Source of the DNA: Chryseolinea sp. H1M3-3
Lineage (GTDB): Bacteria; Bacteroidota; Bacteroidia; Cytophagales; Cyclobacteriaceae
DNA length: 64,000 bases
Assembly: GCF_029360725.1 (NCBI RefSeq)
Contig: NZ_JARKMY010000002.1
Location: 310,001-374,000 of the forward strand
Reading direction: 5' to 3'
The position numbers and the translations under genes were made by a program. The notes below the pieces were generated by a model. The model did not search any database. It worked only from the letters and a program-made list of their open reading frames with translations, and was not told the DNA's origin. This document shows, in pieces, positions 31,597-40,057 of the stretch. Every line of letters starts with the position of its first letter. The first letter of the stretch is position 1.

Positions 31597-32652
31597 ATGA
31601 CGACATACATCAAAGGCATGGGCAATATATCACCTCAGCAAACCTGGGATGATAGTGTATTGCTGAACAAGCCTTTGGTTTATCACGACGACAAACTTAA
31701 ATGTCATGAGCCTGATTACACACAGTATATCGACCCGAAACAACTCCGTCGGATGAGTCGTGTAATCAAAATGGGTGTTGCTGCCGGTTCCATGGCATTA
31801 AAACAGGCCGGACTATCTGTTCCCAACGGGATCATTACTGGTACTGCCTATGGCTGTCTTGAAGACACCGGGATTTTTTTGAATAAGATGATTGAAAACA
31901 ACGAACATGCTTTAAATCCCACGCCGTTCATTCAATCAACACATAATACAATTGGTTCACAGATTGCTTTGTTGTTGCAATGCCAGGGATATAATCAAAC
32001 CTATACGCAAGGAGCTTTTTCCTTTGAAAGCGCGCTGCTCGATGGGATGCTTGAATTAAAGGACGCCCCTGATCAATCCCTTCTTGTTGGTGGCGTGGAT
32101 GAAATTACTTCGACCAGTCACGCTATTCAACGACGATTTGGCATCTTCAGAAAAGCCATGAATAACATGGATCTCTTTCAATCAAAAGAAAAAGGTACAC
32201 TTAACGGTGAGGGCGCTGCTTATTTCGTCCTTTCAGGAGAAAAAGGGATGAATGACAAAGTATGCATTGAGGCGGTAAAAACTTTGTTTAAGCCAACCGA
32301 ATCAGATTTGCATCATGAAATCATTTCGTTTCTGGAAATGGCATCAGCAAAACCCAATGATATTGATCTGGTGTTAGCAGGTAAAAGCGGTGATCAGAGT
32401 TTTGGTACAGATACAGATAAAATTCTTGAGGCTTTTTTTCCAGCCAGCACCATTGGATTATTTAAACACTTATGCGGCGAATTTCCCACCGCGTCCGCCT
32501 TTGCATTGTGGCTGGGAGCGAAAATTATTCAGGAGAACTACCTTCCTGCTGCAGTTGTTTTCAGAAATAATAGCAGACCGATCAACCGGTTGTTAATTTA
32601 CAATCCGTATTTCGGTACGCATCATTCACTGATATTATTACGGGCATGTTAA
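31597..32652 (+). CDS. Chain-length-factor-like KS (ApeC-like), catalytically dead
   Basis: 351 residues with KS fold markers (TGTAYGCLEDTGIFL near 81, STHNTIGSQIALLLQ near 114) but all catalytic residues changed: the nucleophile position in TQGAFSF is Ala140, the first His region reads GKSGDQSFGTD, and the KxxxGH motif reads KHLCGEF. It should pair with the KS encoded just upstream and help set polyene length. It overlaps the next gene by 7 nt. Confidence 0.86.
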   Translation: MTTYIKGMGNISPQQTWDDSVLLNKPLVYHDDKLKCHEPDYTQYIDPKQLRRMSRVIKMGVAAGSMALKQAGLSVPNGIITGTAYGCLEDTGIFLNKMIENNEHALNPTPFIQSTHNTIGSQIALLLQCQGYNQTYTQGAFSFESALLDGMLELKDAPDQSLLVGGVDEITSTSHAIQRRFGIFRKAMNNMDLFQSKEKGTLNGEGAAYFVLSGEKGMNDKVCIEAVKTLFKPTESDLHHEIISFLEMASAKPNDIDLVLAGKSGDQSFGTDTDKILEAFFPASTIGLFKHLCGEFPTASAFALWLGAKIIQENYLPAAVVFRNNSRPINRLLIYNPYFGTHHSLILLRAC

Positions 32653-33419
32653 ATGCAAAGACGATCAATATTACCTTCCTTGCAATACTCCTCGCAATGA
32701 TCGGGTACGATTGGAGTAGCCAAATGTCTCCCTGGTGGTACGCCGTTCTGCTGATTGTTTACCTGAATATTCAGGCGTATGGTGCATCTGTTTTATCAGC
32801 ACAATTCTTTCTACCGGTAAAGTATCAGGGTGATACCAATTCAAATAAAATTGCGATCACTTTCGACGATGGTCCAATTCCGGTGATGACCGAAAAAGTG
32901 CTTGATATTTTATCCGAATACAAAGCTCCCGCCGCGTTCTTTTGTATCGGAAACCGGGTAAACGACTATCCTGCATTAACGAGACGTATTTACGAGTCCG
33001 GCCATCTAATTGGCAACCATAGTTACTGGCATGGTGCTATGTTCGACTTACAGTCTGCGTATAAAATCGCGAAGGAATTGAAGGACACGGATACAGCTAT
33101 CCAAAATGTTATCCATAAAAAACCAAATTTCTTCAGACCTCCTTTTGGTGTAACAAATCCAATGGTTGCAGCGGCCGTAAAAAAAGGCGGGTATAAAACT
33201 ATTGGCTGGTCAATCCGGTCTTTCGATACAGTTACGAAAAATGGCAGCGTTTTACTGGAACGTGTAACAAGATCATTGAAGGGAGGTGATATAATCCTGT
33301 TTCACGATTATAGTACAACAACTTTGGAAATCTTACCTGCATTTCTGGAGGAGGTAGCAAAGCTTGGATTGAAAATTGTAAGGGTAGACGAATTGCTAAA
33401 GGAAAAAGCGTATGTCTAA
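32646..33419 (+). CDS. NodB-type polysaccharide deacetylase-like protein
   Basis: 257 residues: two hydrophobic N-terminal segments (about 4-20 and 26-46), then a NodB domain with TFDDGP (metal Asp, near 76), GNHSYWHG (H-x3-H metal site near 125), RPPFG and FHDYS. Such enzymes remove acetyl groups from amino sugars; in a pigment locus the substrate may be a glycolipid or another ester/amide. All main metal ligands appear present. Overlaps LolA gene by 8 nt. Confidence 0.88.
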   Translation: MLNAKTINITFLAILLAMIGYDWSSQMSPWWYAVLLIVYLNIQAYGASVLSAQFFLPVKYQGDTNSNKIAITFDDGPIPVMTEKVLDILSEYKAPAAFFCIGNRVNDYPALTRRIYESGHLIGNHSYWHGAMFDLQSAYKIAKELKDTDTAIQNVIHKKPNFFRPPFGVTNPMVAAAVKKGGYKTIGWSIRSFDTVTKNGSVLLERVTRSLKGGDIILFHDYSTTTLEILPAFLEEVAKLGLKIVRVDELLKEKAYV

Positions 33420-34062
33420 AAACAACAGCCTGCACAGGTTTTTATTGACGATGCTGTTTTGTGTTTTTGTAACAAGTGTTGATGCACAATATGCCGGTTA
33501 TAAACCTGTAAGCGATTTGCCTTCCTTTAAAAAGAAATTCGCTACTGAGTCAGCCAAGGTTAAATCCATAACCAGTGATTTCACCCAGGAGAAAATCCTT
33601 ATGGCGCTGACAGAAAAAATTACATCAACAGGTAAATTTTGGTTCAAAAGAGAAAATCGGGTCAGGATAGAATACATAAAACCGTTCGCCTATCTGATGA
33701 TCATGAATAACGACAAAATGCTGGTAAAGGATAATGATAAAGAAAATAAGATCAATGTAAAATCCAATAGGCTGTTTCAGCAAGTCCATCGCATCATGAT
33801 TGATTGTGTTCAAGGAACAATTCTTGATAGCAAGGATTTTACGACCAGAATTTTTGAGGATGATAAGGTATATTTACTCGAAATGACTCCTTCGTCAAGG
33901 GCGCTCCGTGAATTTTTTCAAACCATTCTGCTTACCGTCGAGAAGAATGATTACTCCGTAAAAACCATTGAGATGAATGAACCTGCCGGCGATAAAACCA
34001 TCATTTCTTTCAAGAATAAAAAATTGAATGAACAAGTCGCTGACGCAGTTTTTGCTCTTTAA
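33412..34062 (+). CDS. LolA-like outer membrane carrier protein
   Basis: 216 residues with a signal peptide (about 1-25, ...TSVDAQ) and the LolA beta-fold pattern: VKSITSDFTQEKILMALTEKITSTGKFWFKRENRVRIEY broken into strands, then KDFTTRIFEDDKVYLLEMTP. It is a periplasmic hydrophobic carrier. A dedicated LolA-like protein is characteristic of aryl polyene/flexirubin loci and probably ferries the lipidated polyene to the outer membrane. Confidence 0.87.
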   Translation: MSKNNSLHRFLLTMLFCVFVTSVDAQYAGYKPVSDLPSFKKKFATESAKVKSITSDFTQEKILMALTEKITSTGKFWFKRENRVRIEYIKPFAYLMIMNNDKMLVKDNDKENKINVKSNRLFQQVHRIMIDCVQGTILDSKDFTTRIFEDDKVYLLEMTPSSRALREFFQTILLTVEKNDYSVKTIEMNEPAGDKTIISFKNKKLNEQVADAVFAL

Positions 34063-34666
34063 TTTTGCTTCCATTGTCTGCCTGGCCTGCGCTTCCGATT
34101 ACAAGCACATGCGAGCTGTTGAGCCAGATGCGACATGCATTTCCAAATTGGCTCCCCGACAGTTCAGTACATCCTGGTACCACGCAAGCGTAGACGTTAT
34201 TGGAAAGCACATCAGTGGTCTGTTGTTAATTAAAAACATGCCTGATAGCGCTTATCGTATTGTATTTACCAATGAAGCCGGGGTTACCTTTTTTGATTTT
34301 GGGTTTTCCAGAGATGGAAAATTTAACGTTTATAACATCATCAACCAATTGAACAAAGGGCCGGTAATTCAAACGTTGCGTAAAGACTTTGAGTTAATTT
34401 TAGGTTTACCGTTTCATACAAAAATATCCCAGGCCTGGACTATGGATGATGATGTTTTTTATGGTGTAACGCAAAAAAAGGAAACGGCCTATTTCATTAC
34501 CAGTAAAGATTGTGCTTCTTTGCGAAGGTTGGAATTGGGCTCTTCGAGGAAACGTAAAGTGACAGTTAATATAACCGGACAGCCGTATCCCACGCCTGAT
34601 AAGATTGAAATAGTGCATAACACATTCGATATGCAGATAAAACTTACCCGCTTCGAAAAAGAATGA
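34028..34666 (+). CDS. Putative lipoprotein of the pigment locus
   Basis: 212 residues. The N-terminus FLLFNFASIVCLACAS is a lipoprotein-like signal with Cys near residues 18-21. The rest is beta-rich (FYGVTQKKETAYFIT, KIEIVHNTFDMQIKLTRFE), resembling DUF3261-like or LolB-like lipoproteins that accompany LolA in these loci; I infer an outer-membrane acceptor role. Overlaps lolA by 35 nt and the next gene by 4 nt. Confidence 0.7.
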   Translation: MNKSLTQFLLFNFASIVCLACASDYKHMRAVEPDATCISKLAPRQFSTSWYHASVDVIGKHISGLLLIKNMPDSAYRIVFTNEAGVTFFDFGFSRDGKFNVYNIINQLNKGPVIQTLRKDFELILGLPFHTKISQAWTMDDDVFYGVTQKKETAYFITSKDCASLRRLELGSSRKRKVTVNITGQPYPTPDKIEIVHNTFDMQIKLTRFEKE

Positions 34667-35031
34667 TTCTGCTCAACGACTTTTATACGATTCTCCAAAG
34701 AGATACTACTCCGGGAACTGTAAAGGCAAAAATTGCCATCAACAAAAAACACCGGATTCTCGAAGGCCATTTTCCTGGTTTACCTGTAGTGCCCGGTGTC
34801 TGCATGTTGCAAATGGTCCGCGAAGTAATGGAGGTAAATACCGGAAAGGAGTTGAACCTGAAAGAAGCTGATAATATGAAATTTCTGTCGGTCATCAATC
34901 CCGAACAACACAATGAGGTTGATGTTAGCATTCACTATACGGAAGATGGAGGTAAATTTTCCATCAATGCAACGCTCTTTGCCGGTACGGTTACTTTTTT
35001 TAAATTAAAAGCAATGCTGCAAACTGCCTGA
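34663..35031 (+). CDS. Hot-dog dehydratase, ApeI-like, Glu replaced by Gln
   Basis: 122 residues with the FabZ-type motif LEGHFPGLPVVPGVCMLQMV. The catalytic His36 (GHFPG) is kept, but the position of the FabZ/FabA acidic residue is Gln50. It is therefore the complement of the hot-dog protein at 24324, which keeps Glu but lacks His. Together they could form an ApeI:ApeP-like heterodimeric dehydratase making the trans double bonds. Confidence 0.85.
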   Translation: MILLNDFYTILQRDTTPGTVKAKIAINKKHRILEGHFPGLPVVPGVCMLQMVREVMEVNTGKELNLKEADNMKFLSVINPEQHNEVDVSIHYTEDGGKFSINATLFAGTVTFFKLKAMLQTA

Positions 35032-35846
35032 TGGTACCTGCTGATGCTAGCGAGATGTTCAAACAAAGAAAGGTATGTATACTCGTACCTACGTACAACA
35101 ATGAACAAACGCTTGAAAACGTATTGCATAGCTTATTGGAATATACGAATCAGATTATAGTTGTAAACGACGGCTCCACAGACTCGACGATAAATATACT
35201 GGCGCAGTTTTCGCAAATCAACGTGGTCAGCTATACGCAAAACAAAGGGAAAGGCCATGCATTGCAAACGGGATTTAAGCATGCTGTAAAACTGGGCTAT
35301 GACTACGCTATCACCATTGATTCTGATGGGCAACATTTTGCGGAAGATCTCAACAAGTTCCTGACAAAACTGGAAAATCATCCTTCTGCAATTATCATAG
35401 GCGCACGCAACATGGATCAGGCTAGCGTGCCTGGTAAAAGTAGTTTTGGAAACAAATTTTCGAATTTCTGGTTTTGGGTAGAAACGGGATTAAGGATGAG
35501 TGATACACAAAGTGGTTATCGTCTTTATCCCGTGCGGTTAATGGAGTCTGCAACTTTTTTTACACGGAAATTTGAGTTTGAAATTGAGGTACTGGTAACA
35601 TCAGCCTGGCGGGGAATTGAGATAACCGAAGTCCCTGTACGGGTGTATTACGCTGGTAAGGAAGAACGTATTTCACATTTTCGTCCTTTTAAAGATTTTA
35701 CGCGCATCAGCATTCTGAATACATTTCTGGTAACCATTGCGTTGCTTTACATCAAACCCCGCGATTTCTTCCGGGGTATTAAAAAAAAAAATTCAGGCAA
35801 GCTGTCTATGAGCAGCTCTTTGATCCGCTCGAAACAGATTGGATAA
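35031..35846 (+). CDS. Family 2 glycosyltransferase (N-terminal part of a split GT2-DUF2062 unit)
   Basis: 271 residues of GT-A fold: ILVPTYNNEQTLENVL, VVNDGSTDST (nucleotide-sugar Asp) and TIDSDGQH (DxD-like), then RMSDTQSGYRLYP. The end of the frame after FFRGIKKK crosses eleven A (35781-35791) and reads an uncharacteristic Ser-rich tail. In the -1 frame the sequence continues directly into DUF2062. The GT2 domain itself is complete. It would add a sugar or polyprenyl-linked group to the product or its lipid carrier. Confidence 0.87.
   Translation: MVPADASEMFKQRKVCILVPTYNNEQTLENVLHSLLEYTNQIIVVNDGSTDSTINILAQFSQINVVSYTQNKGKGHALQTGFKHAVKLGYDYAITIDSDGQHFAEDLNKFLTKLENHPSAIIIGARNMDQASVPGKSSFGNKFSNFWFWVETGLRMSDTQSGYRLYPVRLMESATFFTRKFEFEIEVLVTSAWRGIEITEVPVRVYYAGKEERISHFRPFKDFTRISILNTFLVTIALLYIKPRDFFRGIKKKNSGKLSMSSSLIRSKQIG
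35781..35791 (+). other. A11 homopolymer, possible slippage site
   Basis: Eleven consecutive A. Reading shifts from the GT2 frame (AAA AAA AAA AAT) to the DUF2062 frame (AAA AAA TTC AGG) by -1. Runs of nine or more A are known sites of transcriptional slippage and of ribosomal -1 shifting. Also a typical place for a sequencing indel. Confidence 0.6.
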
Positions 35847-35875
35847 AAAGTTTTTCGGTTGGCTTCGGCGTCTTC

Positions 35876-36211
35876 ATGGGCATTTTTCCGGTCTGGGGTT
35901 TTCAATTAATCATTGCCATAACTTTAGCATTTATTCTTCGGTTAAATAAAGTGCTGGTTATCCTCGCGGCAAACATTAGCATCCCACCGATGATTCCCTT
36001 GATTTTGTTTTTAAGCCATCTTACAGGTGCATTTTGGATGGGCGACCATGCCCAATATATAACTTTTAGCCAGGAAATTACTTTTGATATGATGAAAGCC
36101 AATTTGATACAGTATGCCGTGGGTGCGATCACGTTAGCCTTTGTAGCATGTATTATTTCTACGGCTATAACCTACGTCATGTTAAAAATATTTAAGCGGC
36201 AGAAAGTCTGA
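35876..36211 (+). CDS. DUF2062 membrane domain, likely expressed by frameshift from the GT2 gene
   Basis: From the ATG at 35876 there are 111 residues with two or three membrane helices (MGIFPVWGFQLIIAITLAF and later), the DUF2062 core. In frame before this ATG, coding resemblance clearly continues (FRQAVYEQLFDPLETDWIKS then FSVGFGVF), back to 35783 at the A run, with no ATG, GTG or TTG. The conserved N-terminal helix of DUF2062 is thus outside the ATG-started protein, which argues for translation as a GT2-DUF2062 fusion. Followed by the MMPL gene after 3 nt. Confidence 0.75.
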   Translation: MGIFPVWGFQLIIAITLAFILRLNKVLVILAANISIPPMIPLILFLSHLTGAFWMGDHAQYITFSQEITFDMMKANLIQYAVGAITLAFVACIISTAITYVMLKIFKRQKV

Positions 36212-36214
36212 TAC

Positions 36215-39200
36215 ATGGCAAAACTCTTTCTAAATATTTATGATTTCTTTCACAAGCGCATTCCGCTGTTCTGGATTGTATTTATACTAACGCTGGTGAT
36301 TCTCGGCCTCGGGGCATCGCGTATTAAGCTTGAAGAAGATATCACTAAATTTTTCCCGGAAGATGAGAGAGTAGAAAAACTGAACTACGTTTTTCAAAAC
36401 TCAAAGTTTGTTGAACGGATTGTCGTAATGGTATCTGTTAAGGATAGTAGCACAACACCCCAGCCTGACAGTCTTATAAGTTTGGCAGCGACGCTTGCTG
36501 CGCGAATGGACCGTGATCTAAAGCCTTTCATCAAGCAACTAACAACACAAGTAGATGAGGAAAAGGTCATGAACCTTTTTACATCTATCTATGAACACCT
36601 GCCAATTTTTTTGGAAGATCAGGACTATGAAAAAATCGACTCCATTCGCCAACCGGAAAATGCGGTGAAAGTATTGGAGAATAACTACCGGCAGTTAATT
36701 TCTCCCGCCGGGGTAGTGGTAAAAAGAATTGTCGTTAAAGATCCATTAGGTTTTTCTTTCCTTGCACTTCAAAAACTTCAACAGCTTCAGTACGACGACA
36801 ATTTTGAGCTGTATGATGGATATATTCTCACGAAGGATCATCGTCACCTGGTATTTTTCATCTCGCCAACCTATCCTCCCTCGGAGACAGGTAATAATTC
36901 AAAGTTTGTCGAACAACTGGATGTTTTGATTCAGTCGCTTTTACAACACCATCCGCAGTTACATGTATCCTATTTTGGGGCGCCCGTTGTTGCCGTTGGT
37001 AATGCACAACAATTAAAAAGCGACTCGATGATAACGGTGAGCTTGGTTGTTATTTTTCTGGCGATCTTTCTGGTGGGGTTCTTTAGGAAGAAACGTGTGC
37101 CCATCCTGATATTTATCCCTGTTTTATTCGGGGCAATATTTTCCTTGTGCTGTATTTACCTGATAAAGGGATCCATCTCCATTTTGGCAATAGCGGCAGG
37201 ATCCGTCATCTTAGGTATTGCAGTTAATTACTCGTTGCATTTTTTGTCTCACCTGAAGCATACTCACAACATCAAAGCGGTTATTGAAGATTTGGTGAGA
37301 CCAATGACCATTGGCAGTGCCACTACAGTCGTGGCCTTTTTCTGTTTACAATTTGCAAATGCTGCAGTGCTTCGTGATGTAGGTTTATTTGCCGGCTTTA
37401 GCTTGATAGGCGCTGCGTTGTGCTCTTTAATTTTCCTGCCACATTTTATAAAAGAAAATTTATTCCCAGAACATCAGCGCGAAAACTGGATTGAGAGGTT
37501 TTCATTTTCCGCATTTGAATCAAATCGATATGTTGCGCTGATCATATTGCTGGCCACTCCCGTTTTCTTATACGTTGCTCAGGATGTTACTTTCAATAGC
37601 GATATGAGCAAACTGAATTTTATGCGCAGCGATACCCGGGAGGCGCAGCGACGATTAGAAATGATCAATAAATCGTCGTTAACCTCCGTTTATGTGGTAT
37701 CCAGCGGAAAAGATTTACAATCTGCCTTAACAAAGAATGAACAAGTTTCTCCTGTTCTGAAAAAATTGAAAGACCAGAAGACAATCAACAAGTATTCTTC
37801 CGTCTCTATTTTTTTAATTTCCGATTCCCTACAGCGCGCACGTATTCGCAAATGGAATGATTACTGGACCGCCGAGAAGAAGAATAATCTTACCAGTATT
37901 ATTCAGGATAAGGGTGAGGAATTGAAATTCTCCGCACAGGTAATGGAAAATTTTAGAACCCTTCTTTCAAAAGATTTCAAGACAGGTGATACGGCCGTGA
38001 TGAATCAAATTCGCTTGGCCTTTTTTGATGACTACATCATCGAAAAAAATAACGATGTTACGGTGATCACGCTGGCAAATGTAAACGCTGAAAATAAAAG
38101 CCTTGTATATGATGCGTTGAAGACTACGCCAGTCCATGCTTTTGACCGTCAGATGTTGACCAATCTTTTTGTTGAGTATGTAAATGCGGATTTTAATTTC
38201 ATTGTCACCTTCACGGCCGTACTGGTGTTTTGTGCTTTGCTTCTTTTGTATGGTCGGATTGAATTGACACTTATCACATTCGTTCCCATGTTGATTACTT
38301 GGATATGGATACTTGGTATCATGGCGCTGGTAGGGATTGAATTTAATATTATCAACATCATGGTTTCAACGTTCATCTTCGGGTTAGGGGATGATTACAG
38401 CATTTTTACGATGGATGGTTTGTTGCAGGAATATAAAGTTGGAAAGAAAAACATCGCTTCAATACGTACTTCCATCTTTCTGTCTGCAGTAACGACTATT
38501 GCAGGACTCGGCGTACTAATTTTTGCTCAACATCCCGCGCTCCGATCGATCGCCGCGATTTCCATCATTGGCATTGCATGTGTTTTTATCATGTCTCAAA
38601 CCATTGAGCCATTCTTGTTTCGATGGTTGGTGACCAACAGAACCAGTAAAGGGTTCTCGCCGATGACTTTTCATGGAGTATTCAGGACAACGTTTACATA
38701 TTCGTTGTTTGTATTTGGAGCAATATCCGCAACCATCCTGGGTTTGATCTTTCGCTGGATACCTTTTGGTAAAAAAAGGATCAAAGTTTTCTTTCATTCA
38801 TTGCTGAAAGGCTTTGCAAGGTTAATCATTTACGTCGAACCGAGTGTCAGGAAAAAGATCATCGGTCGAACACCTAAGACATTTTCAAGAGCAAGTGTGA
38901 TCATCGCCAATCATACTTCATTTCTTGACATTCTTTTAACGATCATGCTGCACCCTAAATTAATTTTGGTCACTAATAAATGGGTTTGGAATTCACCAGT
39001 ATTTGGAAGTGTGGTTCGTTTGGCGGACTATTACCCCGTGAGCGAAGGCGCTGAAGATGGTGTTGAAAAGCTAAAGGACAGAATTCAGGAAGGATACTCC
39101 GTAGTAATTTTTCCTGAGGGCACAAGGTCGGAAAACGGCGTCATAAAACGCTTTCATAAAGGCGCATTTTATATCGCAGATATTTTTAAAATTCCGGTGC

Positions 39201-40057
39201 AGCCATTGCTGATCCATGGAGCAGCGGATGCTATTCCTAAAGGAACTTTTTATTTAAACGCTGGACAGCTTACACTGAAATTTCTTCCACCAATTGAAAT
39301 CAGTGATCCAGTTTTCGGTACAGGTTATTCTGATCGAACAAAAAAAATCAGCAAATACTTCAAACATGAGTTTGCATTATTAAAAGCTGAAGTTGAGGAT
39401 GCTGACTATTTTTCGCACAAACTGATTTCGAATTATATTTATAAAGGTCCGGTGCTGGAATGGTACATGCGTGTGAAGCTACGGTTGGAAAAATATTATG
39501 CACCATTTCATAAGCTCCTTCCGCTACAAGGTACCATCCTCGATCTGGGTTGCGGCTACGGCTTTTTATGTTACATGCTTCAATTCATGTCCCAAGACCG
39601 GATTATTATTGGAGTGGATTATGATGAAGAAAAAATTGATGTTGCCCGCCATGGATATCTGAAATCAGAACGCCTGACTTTTTTCTGCGATGATGTGACG
39701 CGCTTTCCGTTAACCAATTATGATGGTATCGTAATCAGTGATGTATTACATTACCTGCCCTATGATGCTCAGGAAATGCTATTGGAACGAGCGATTGATG
39801 CGCTTAACCCAGGCGGTATCCTCGTGGTGAGGGAGGGAAACGCTGATTTGAAAGAACGACATAAAGGTACCCAGATCACTGAATTTTTTAGCGTGAAGCT
39901 GCTGAAGTTTAATAAATCGACTAATGATCTGAATTTTTTGTCCGGGGAAAGCATTAAAAGAATAGCAAATCGCAAGGGACTTACGGTAACAATAGATGAT
40001 GATGCGAAATTTACCTCGAATGTTATTTTTGTAATTAGAAAACCCAATGATTTATAA
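36215..40057 (+). CDS. Trifunctional MMPL exporter / PlsC acyltransferase / SAM methyltransferase
   Basis: 1280 residues. Residues 1 to about 840 are an RND/MMPL transporter: helices at about 16-35, groups near 265-410 and near 645-800, and two large periplasmic loops. About 870-1050 is a PlsC-type acyltransferase with NHTSFLD (HX4D, near 900) and FPEGTRSENG (near 965). About 1090-1275 is a class I methyltransferase with LDLGCGYGFLCYML (near 1108) and SDVLHYLP. This triple architecture is known from Bacteroidota pigment loci; it couples lipid acylation or methylation to export of the polyene. Confidence 0.92.
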   Translation: MAKLFLNIYDFFHKRIPLFWIVFILTLVILGLGASRIKLEEDITKFFPEDERVEKLNYVFQNSKFVERIVVMVSVKDSSTTPQPDSLISLAATLAARMDRDLKPFIKQLTTQVDEEKVMNLFTSIYEHLPIFLEDQDYEKIDSIRQPENAVKVLENNYRQLISPAGVVVKRIVVKDPLGFSFLALQKLQQLQYDDNFELYDGYILTKDHRHLVFFISPTYPPSETGNNSKFVEQLDVLIQSLLQHHPQLHVSYFGAPVVAVGNAQQLKSDSMITVSLVVIFLAIFLVGFFRKKRVPILIFIPVLFGAIFSLCCIYLIKGSISILAIAAGSVILGIAVNYSLHFLSHLKHTHNIKAVIEDLVRPMTIGSATTVVAFFCLQFANAAVLRDVGLFAGFSLIGAALCSLIFLPHFIKENLFPEHQRENWIERFSFSAFESNRYVALIILLATPVFLYVAQDVTFNSDMSKLNFMRSDTREAQRRLEMINKSSLTSVYVVSSGKDLQSALTKNEQVSPVLKKLKDQKTINKYSSVSIFLISDSLQRARIRKWNDYWTAEKKNNLTSIIQDKGEELKFSAQVMENFRTLLSKDFKTGDTAVMNQIRLAFFDDYIIEKNNDVTVITLANVNAENKSLVYDALKTTPVHAFDRQMLTNLFVEYVNADFNFIVTFTAVLVFCALLLLYGRIELTLITFVPMLITWIWILGIMALVGIEFNIINIMVSTFIFGLGDDYSIFTMDGLLQEYKVGKKNIASIRTSIFLSAVTTIAGLGVLIFAQHPALRSIAAISIIGIACVFIMSQTIEPFLFRWLVTNRTSKGFSPMTFHGVFRTTFTYSLFVFGAISATILGLIFRWIPFGKKRIKVFFHSLLKGFARLIIYVEPSVRKKIIGRTPKTFSRASVIIANHTSFLDILLTIMLHPKLILVTNKWVWNSPVFGSVVRLADYYPVSEGAEDGVEKLKDRIQEGYSVVIFPEGTRSENGVIKRFHKGAFYIADIFKIPVQPLLIHGAADAIPKGTFYLNAGQLTLKFLPPIEISDPVFGTGYSDRTKKISKYFKHEFALLKAEVEDADYFSHKLISNYIYKGPVLEWYMRVKLRLEKYYAPFHKLLPLQGTILDLGCGYGFLCYMLQFMSQDRIIIGVDYDEEKIDVARHGYLKSERLTFFCDDVTRFPLTNYDGIVISDVLHYLPYDAQEMLLERAIDALNPGGILVVREGNADLKERHKGTQITEFFSVKLLKFNKSTNDLNFLSGESIKRIANRKGLTVTIDDDAKFTSNVIFVIRKPNDL

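Follow-up and report, generated by a model that had tools for sequence, protein, structure and literature searches.

A run of eleven adenines as a probable programmed -1 recoding site between a GT2 glycosyltransferase and a DUF2062 membrane domain in Chryseolinea

The window analysed here, a 64-kb stretch of the genome of Chryseolinea sp. H1M3-3, holds a glycosyltransferase gene whose reading frame meets a run of eleven adenines, and the question is whether the gene is broken at this point or is built to give two products. The frame-0 ORF (35031..35846, forward strand, like all window features given below; 271 aa) belongs to the GT2 family (Pfam PF00535 Glycos_transf_2, E 1.5e-26; 93.7 bits against a cut-off of 23.3). 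A scan for A/T runs of at least 8 and G/C runs of at least 7 places the A11 run exactly at 35781-35791 (35781..35791), where frame 0 reads AAA AAA AAA AAT, and identifies it as the longest homopolymer of the window. The sequence-only reading of this DNA held that the GT2 frame passes through the run into a short tail, and that a DUF2062 frame follows in -1, opening at the run without a start codon. Both claims are borne out. The tail comprises 18 codons, from 35790 on. The -1-frame ORF (35783..36211, 142 aa) encodes a DUF2062 membrane domain (PF09835, E 6.9e-16; 59 bits against a cut-off of 27.4) with four hydrophobic stretches, and its first ATG, GTG or TTG lies 84 nt past the run, at 35876. 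A TAA at 35780..35782 stops the -1 frame at the run and so rules out in-frame entry into this ORF from the upstream side.

Runs of this length are scarce. The 6.88-Mb genome contains 38 distinct runs of at least ten adenines (40 overlapping matches), just two of them A11, and 440,784 nt of other ORFs of at least 200 aa, drawn from 80 relative loci, contain none. Among the 28 of the 38 genomic runs that were examined, several sit within long open frames, besides the one in dnaX discussed below. The same genome has a second DUF2062 match (L001 1501-1926; G000:C10:574493-574918) in an open frame of 162 aa.

The split recurs in close relatives. GT2 and DUF2062 are found together in all six Chryseolinea genomes searched, the present one included, and occupy two open frames each time. 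The run lengths in these six are A11, A11, A11, A10, A10 and A11; the flanking bases vary in compensation with run length, and DUF2062 stays in the -1 frame in 6/6.

Wider searches extend this pattern. At family level, GT2 was detected in 41/295 genomes (E<=1e-60) and DUF2062 in 42/295 (E<=1e-12); a search of named species contributed 80 of 574 loci, picked by similarity to the window's clade; a class-level search covered 69/395 genomes; and further stretches were added. From 219 loci with a GT2 match, the removal of four without DUF2062 and of 42 taken as duplicates leaves 173 distinct loci. Three of the four (L108, L154, L180) are cut by a contig end and the other, L205 (G460:C1), is a true absence, in which the ORF after GT2 resembles an MMPL exporter by eye. 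Also outside the 173 is L212 (G199:C21), a GT2-DUF2062 homologue in which a TGA interrupts the GT2 domain, away from the junction.

The 173 loci comprise 151 in-frame fusions and 22 split genes. Every split locus has A10 (n=17) or A11 (n=5) at the junction and DUF2062 in the -1 register, and no split locus without a run occurs among the 173. Junction position and -1 direction are thus conserved over species in 22/22, with slip-prone sequence kept at each frame transition, and the TAA closing the -1 frame at the run is shared by 19/22. Runs of at least ten adenines occupy 22/22 split against 12/151 in-frame junctions (Fisher 1.4e-19, over rows that are not independent). Comparison therefore establishes the site, its register and its recurrence. 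That the run and the interrupted frame persist jointly in relatives makes the arrangement look like an inbuilt switch between two products and not like an error.

As its alternative, the sequence-only reading offered a base-call error or a mutation in the homopolymer, here taken as a sequencing error or a recent frameshift in what is otherwise a plain fusion. It draws on the error-proneness of homopolymers and on the plain fusions of most relatives (151/173), but the six genus species and further genera agree, including a single-contig 8.24-Mb genome and two named isolates. In addition, the register is constant at -1 in 22/22 split loci, and the run of one isolated split gene, L146, differs from its sisters by substitutions as well. 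With 6/6 genus genomes split in the same direction, this alternative is rejected, at a probability next to negligible.

An A11 tract can change in length by replication slippage, a process also discussed in PMC3711429. Phase variation would use such changes to toggle the gene on and off between cells. Random phases would, however, spread over three registers between species, whereas every one of the 22 split genes has DUF2062 in -1 and flanking bases offset the changes in length. Phase variation is accordingly rejected as highly improbable.

DUF2062 might instead be a separate gene, translated from its own start or coupled to the GT2 stop. An internal ATG does occur at +84/85 in 18/22 split loci, and some ATG, GTG or TTG precedes +84 in 10/22, within 60 nt of the run in 4 of these. 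The common ATG (35876..35878 in the window) is nevertheless the Met of a conserved FMG motif inside the domain, a motif found in in-frame homologues too, and the residues upstream of it are conserved. Moreover, 12/22 split loci have no start codon before it, and the frame-0 GT2 stop to which DUF2062 might be coupled lies anywhere from 0 to 119 nt past the run. The DUF2062 profile match begins at residue 26 of the -1 ORF, and the residues from run to domain are conserved within the clade. Over the first 78 nt past the run, differences at codon positions 1/2/3 are 0.345/0.219/0.624 (120 pairs, 16 of the 18 split genes of the main clade), so that the DUF2062 frame is conserved right up to the run, with coding-type substitutions that indicate selection on the protein. 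No conserved separate start for DUF2062, of the kind that would have spoken against the sequence-only reading, is seen in the 22 split loci. The ATG at 35876 is not a likely start for DUF2062, and the two-gene arrangement as a whole is rejected on the comparison with relatives as very unlikely. The frame-0 tail was also considered as a functional peptide; this candidate was rejected, as the tails differ between loci and end at variable distances (0-119 nt) from the run.

The split form seems to have arisen repeatedly. On a maximum-likelihood tree built from the GT2 portion (quick search, 173 rows), the gene must have switched between the split and the in-frame form at least 7 times, a count that does not distinguish gains from losses. 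One clade, with 20 genes and an SH-aLRT of 99, contains 18 split genes with the run and 2 in-frame genes without it, one of which matches Pseudochryseolinea flava. Run length in relatives, which the sequence-only reading proposed to compare, takes no value in this clade that would restore a single frame. Four further split genes, each a single sequence, stand beside in-frame genes: L124 (branch support 82), a Saprospiraceae MAG; L146 (100); L157 (78); and L161 (46, a weak placing). L146 has 14 nt between two conserved blocks where its sisters have 15, plus several substitutions to A, so its run differs from theirs by more than a homopolymer count. Family searches for three of the isolated genes, L146, L157 and L161, returned uncut in-frame relatives in two families and no relative in the third, along with genes cut at a contig end. 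With one clade and four isolated cases beside in-frame relatives, about five gains of the split form are likely. Two products are dispensable, given that the frameshift is absent from two members of the clade and from most of the family.

Taken together, these comparisons make programmed -1 recoding at the A11 run very probable; a short GT2 and a GT2-DUF2062 fusion would be made by it in a flexirubin-type operon. The sequence-only reading had proposed programmed slippage or frameshifting, and the proposal gains support from the 22/22 split homologues, in which A10 or A11 is kept and compensating changes in run length and flanks preserve the -1 register. Unslipped reading would give a GT2 ending 18 codons past the run. 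A fraction would slip back one base at A11 and continue into DUF2062, yielding the fusion. The slip might be made by RNA polymerase, adding one extra A to the mRNA, or by the ribosome, moving back one base on A_AAA_AAA. The short form may be a modulator or a by-product. That both products are made, and in what ratio, is inferred.

The dnaX gene provides a positive control. In PMC3711429, dnaX is described with tau made only by recoding, and ten A's are reported in 9/17 genes (Antonov et al., 2013, PMC3711429). In the present genome, one of the 38 runs of at least ten adenines sits in dnaX (L224 1501-1519; run G000:C1:125408-125417): past A10, frame 0 has only two more codons before its stop, and tau, the longer frame, lies in -1. 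A survey of 29 genomes, 28 with a dnaX match, finds exactly A10, a nearby frame-0 stop and a longer -1 frame in 18/28 relatives, own genome included. In all 18, comparison with the 10 single-frame dnaX genes shows that only the -1 frame is homologous to the tau C-terminus. The first A is the third base of a Leu, Val, Ser, Ile or Ala codon and the last is the third base of a Lys codon; because both are third codon bases, one wobble A is kept outside any single heptamer in 18/18. Like the dnaX genes of Antonov et al. (PMC3711429), the split GT2 gene with A10 has its short product in frame 0 and its long product in -1, but in another gene and operon.

Other known systems resemble the site in part. 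In Thermus thermophilus dnaX, a homopolymer yields two products, one long and one short, as proposed here, by transcriptional slippage at nine A's (PMC5009743); its long product is in frame 0, whereas that of the split GT2 gene needs the slip. In Shigella mxiE, the longer product needs transcriptional slippage, with two ORFs joined by one non-templated base as in the present proposal, but the run is of U's and the gene is of another kind (PMC1088944). The -1 ribosomal frameshift of E. coli dnaX uses an A-rich slippery site after a Shine-Dalgarno (SD)-like element (PMC3711429), as here. It differs from the GT2 site in its A_AAA_AAG heptamer, its stem-loop and the short product that results from the frameshift.

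Whether polymerase or ribosome makes the slip is finely balanced, with RNA polymerase slightly favoured. Runs of 10 or 11 in 22/22 split loci exceed the homopolymer length of at least 9 taken as a criterion of transcriptional slippage. They also exceed, at every split site, the 7 bases that a ribosome needs, and this favours the polymerase. The same is suggested by dnaX, with exactly A10 in 18/18 and one wobble A outside whichever heptamer is used, and by the in-frame genes described below, in which the excess over background is seen at A>=9 and not at A7-8. The polymerase is further favoured by the lack of a downstream RNA fold at the 22 split GT2 sites (60-nt mean z +0.2, vs -0.25 at 151 in-frame sites). 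Split dnaX sites have a mean z of -0.75, with 4/18 at -1.9 or below.

A purely ribosomal slip at the same programmed site, with tandem tRNA-Lys moving to -1 on A_AAA_AAA and an SD-like element assisting as in E. coli dnaX, takes a share of the recoding explanation a little short of half. Its in-phase heptamer, X_XXY_YYZ, is present in 22/22 split loci, since A_AAA_AAA fits into a run of at least 9 whatever the phase. Evidence in favour of the ribosome comes from the single register and from the SD-like element upstream. The slip is only ever -1, never +1, in 22/22 GT2 and 18/18 split dnaX genes, and a variable direction among orthologues, taken as a sign of transcriptional slippage, is absent from the 22. 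According to the GeneTack authors, direction is not fixed in transposase slippage and a single direction indicates ribosomal frameshifting (PMC3711429). This rule is an aid rather than a strict criterion, because the same authors favoured transcriptional realignment for A10 dnaX, though it is -1 only (Antonov et al., 2013, PMC3711429).

The SD-like element is a CGGGGT just upstream of the run (35772..35777; anti-SD duplex -6.3 kcal/mol), a possible stimulator. Defined as a duplex with the anti-SD tail of <=-5 kcal/mol within 12 nt before the run, such an element occurs in 15/22 split GT2 loci and 11/18 split dnaX genes, against 3/29 in-frame genes with A>=9, 15/122 in-frame genes without such a run and 7.1% of 1600 random sites. 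Pairing is stronger than at in-frame A>=9 genes for split GT2 (Mann-Whitney 4e-5) and split dnaX (9e-6), again over rows that are not independent; 14 of the 15 SD-bearing GT2 sites come from the one clade. Compared with GT2, SD-like pairing is somewhat stronger at the dnaX sites (mean -5.6 vs -4.5), which also have some downstream structure. Against the ribosomal slip stand, beside the run length and the missing stem-loop, the absence of a strong SD-like element at three of four isolated split sites. Bacteroidia ribosomes are also described as sequestering the anti-SD (PMC9976891), though prfB frameshift sites of the class are reported to retain their SD (PMC8710568). The SD-like purine stretch ahead of these runs, in split GT2 and dnaX alike, is found in a class where initiation seldom relies on an SD.

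Long runs also occur where no slip is needed. At the junction, the 151 in-frame genes have A>=9 (n=29), A7-8 (n=21) or no run of at least 7 (n=101). The ratio of A>=9 to A7-8 is 29:21 there, vs 8:192 in other ORFs of the same 80 relative loci (1.6e-17), and KKK is spelled with nine A's in 20/25 junction cases vs 5/41 in other ORFs of the 80 loci, themselves drawn from 574 (Fisher 4e-8). These tests are descriptive because rows are related, and the A>=9 share depends on sampling, with 22/70 in-frame loci in the similarity-picked set (80 of 574) vs 7/58 from the class draw. The 29 in-frame fusions with A9-A11 (e.g., L071, L077, L094, L096, L105, L107, L114 and L135) span several Bacteroidota lineages, including Mucilaginibacter, Aequorivita, Parafilimonas and Xanthocytophaga. 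Because long runs are rare elsewhere yet kept at the junction without need of a slip, the pattern suggests, short of proof, that slippage also takes place in the in-frame A>=9 genes, which would then yield a certain amount of short GT2 in the manner of the Thermus dnaX that they resemble.

The surroundings of the gene point to a role for the fusion. Upstream lie ketosynthase, polysaccharide deacetylase, LolA, an unassigned 212-aa protein and a FabA-like gene (31597..35031; Pfam); downstream, a single 1280-aa frame joins an MMPL exporter to an acyltransferase and a methyltransferase (36215..40057; Pfam). The gene thus sits between the FabA-like gene and the exporter. All five upstream homologues precede GT2 in 9/12 relative loci inspected (7 of the 9 split), single ones occur in 31-34 of 80 relative loci (80 of 574), and an MMPL-homologue ORF begins <=2000 nt from the GT2 ORF start in 58/80 of the same set. 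This gene set matches flxP-flxU of Chitinophaga pinensis (deacetylase, acyltransferase, LolA, glycosyltransferase and exporter), which are proposed to act in flexirubin export (PMC3992019).

The predicted structure of L068, a natural in-frame homologue (mean pLDDT 83, pTM 0.64), has as its best Foldseek matches ArnC, GtrB and DPMS, at 15-20% identity in the top matches. The model resembles these polyprenyl-phosphate glycosyltransferases in fold; its membrane part, in contrast to theirs, is DUF2062, and the junction falls in a predicted break between two helices. A sequence search at E<=1 finds no solved relative of DUF2062. The fusion would be the working polyprenyl-phosphate-glycosyltransferase-like membrane enzyme of a flexirubin/aryl-polyene-type operon. 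The frame-0 product would lose the four hydrophobic stretches of DUF2062 but keeps one of its own (residues 223-241), so membrane association is expected of it rather than the solubility that the sequence-only reading had supposed.

The kind of mechanism is known; the gene is a new one for it. Among the literature matches listed (title, abstract start and term counts), none points to GT2-DUF2062 recoding, the 146 clusters of PMC3711429 not being covered by name, and DUF2062 has zero occurrences among the matches listed in one query. A broader and rather doubtful possibility is that the junction acts across Bacteroidota as a hotspot for repeated recoding, in two registers (fusion encoded in frame 0 with A9-A11, or in -1 with A10-A11 and about five gains), and that an SD-like element was added at most obligatory sites in the window's order, dnaX included, which could make these sites responsive to loss of bS21. 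Such a response is conceivable because Bacteroidia ribosomes normally hide the anti-SD. If true, pigment/lipid export and clamp-loader composition would be tied to ribosome state.

An SD-like element at recoding sites of a class with occluded anti-SD makes a question about the Bacteroidia ribosome directly testable, and the apparent repeated gain and loss opens selection on the slip to study. Where the cell probably makes a fusion, annotation would list a gene as truncated or disrupted. With this locus, a biosynthesis/export glycosyltransferase would join the bacterial cellular genes that need programmed recoding for their full product.
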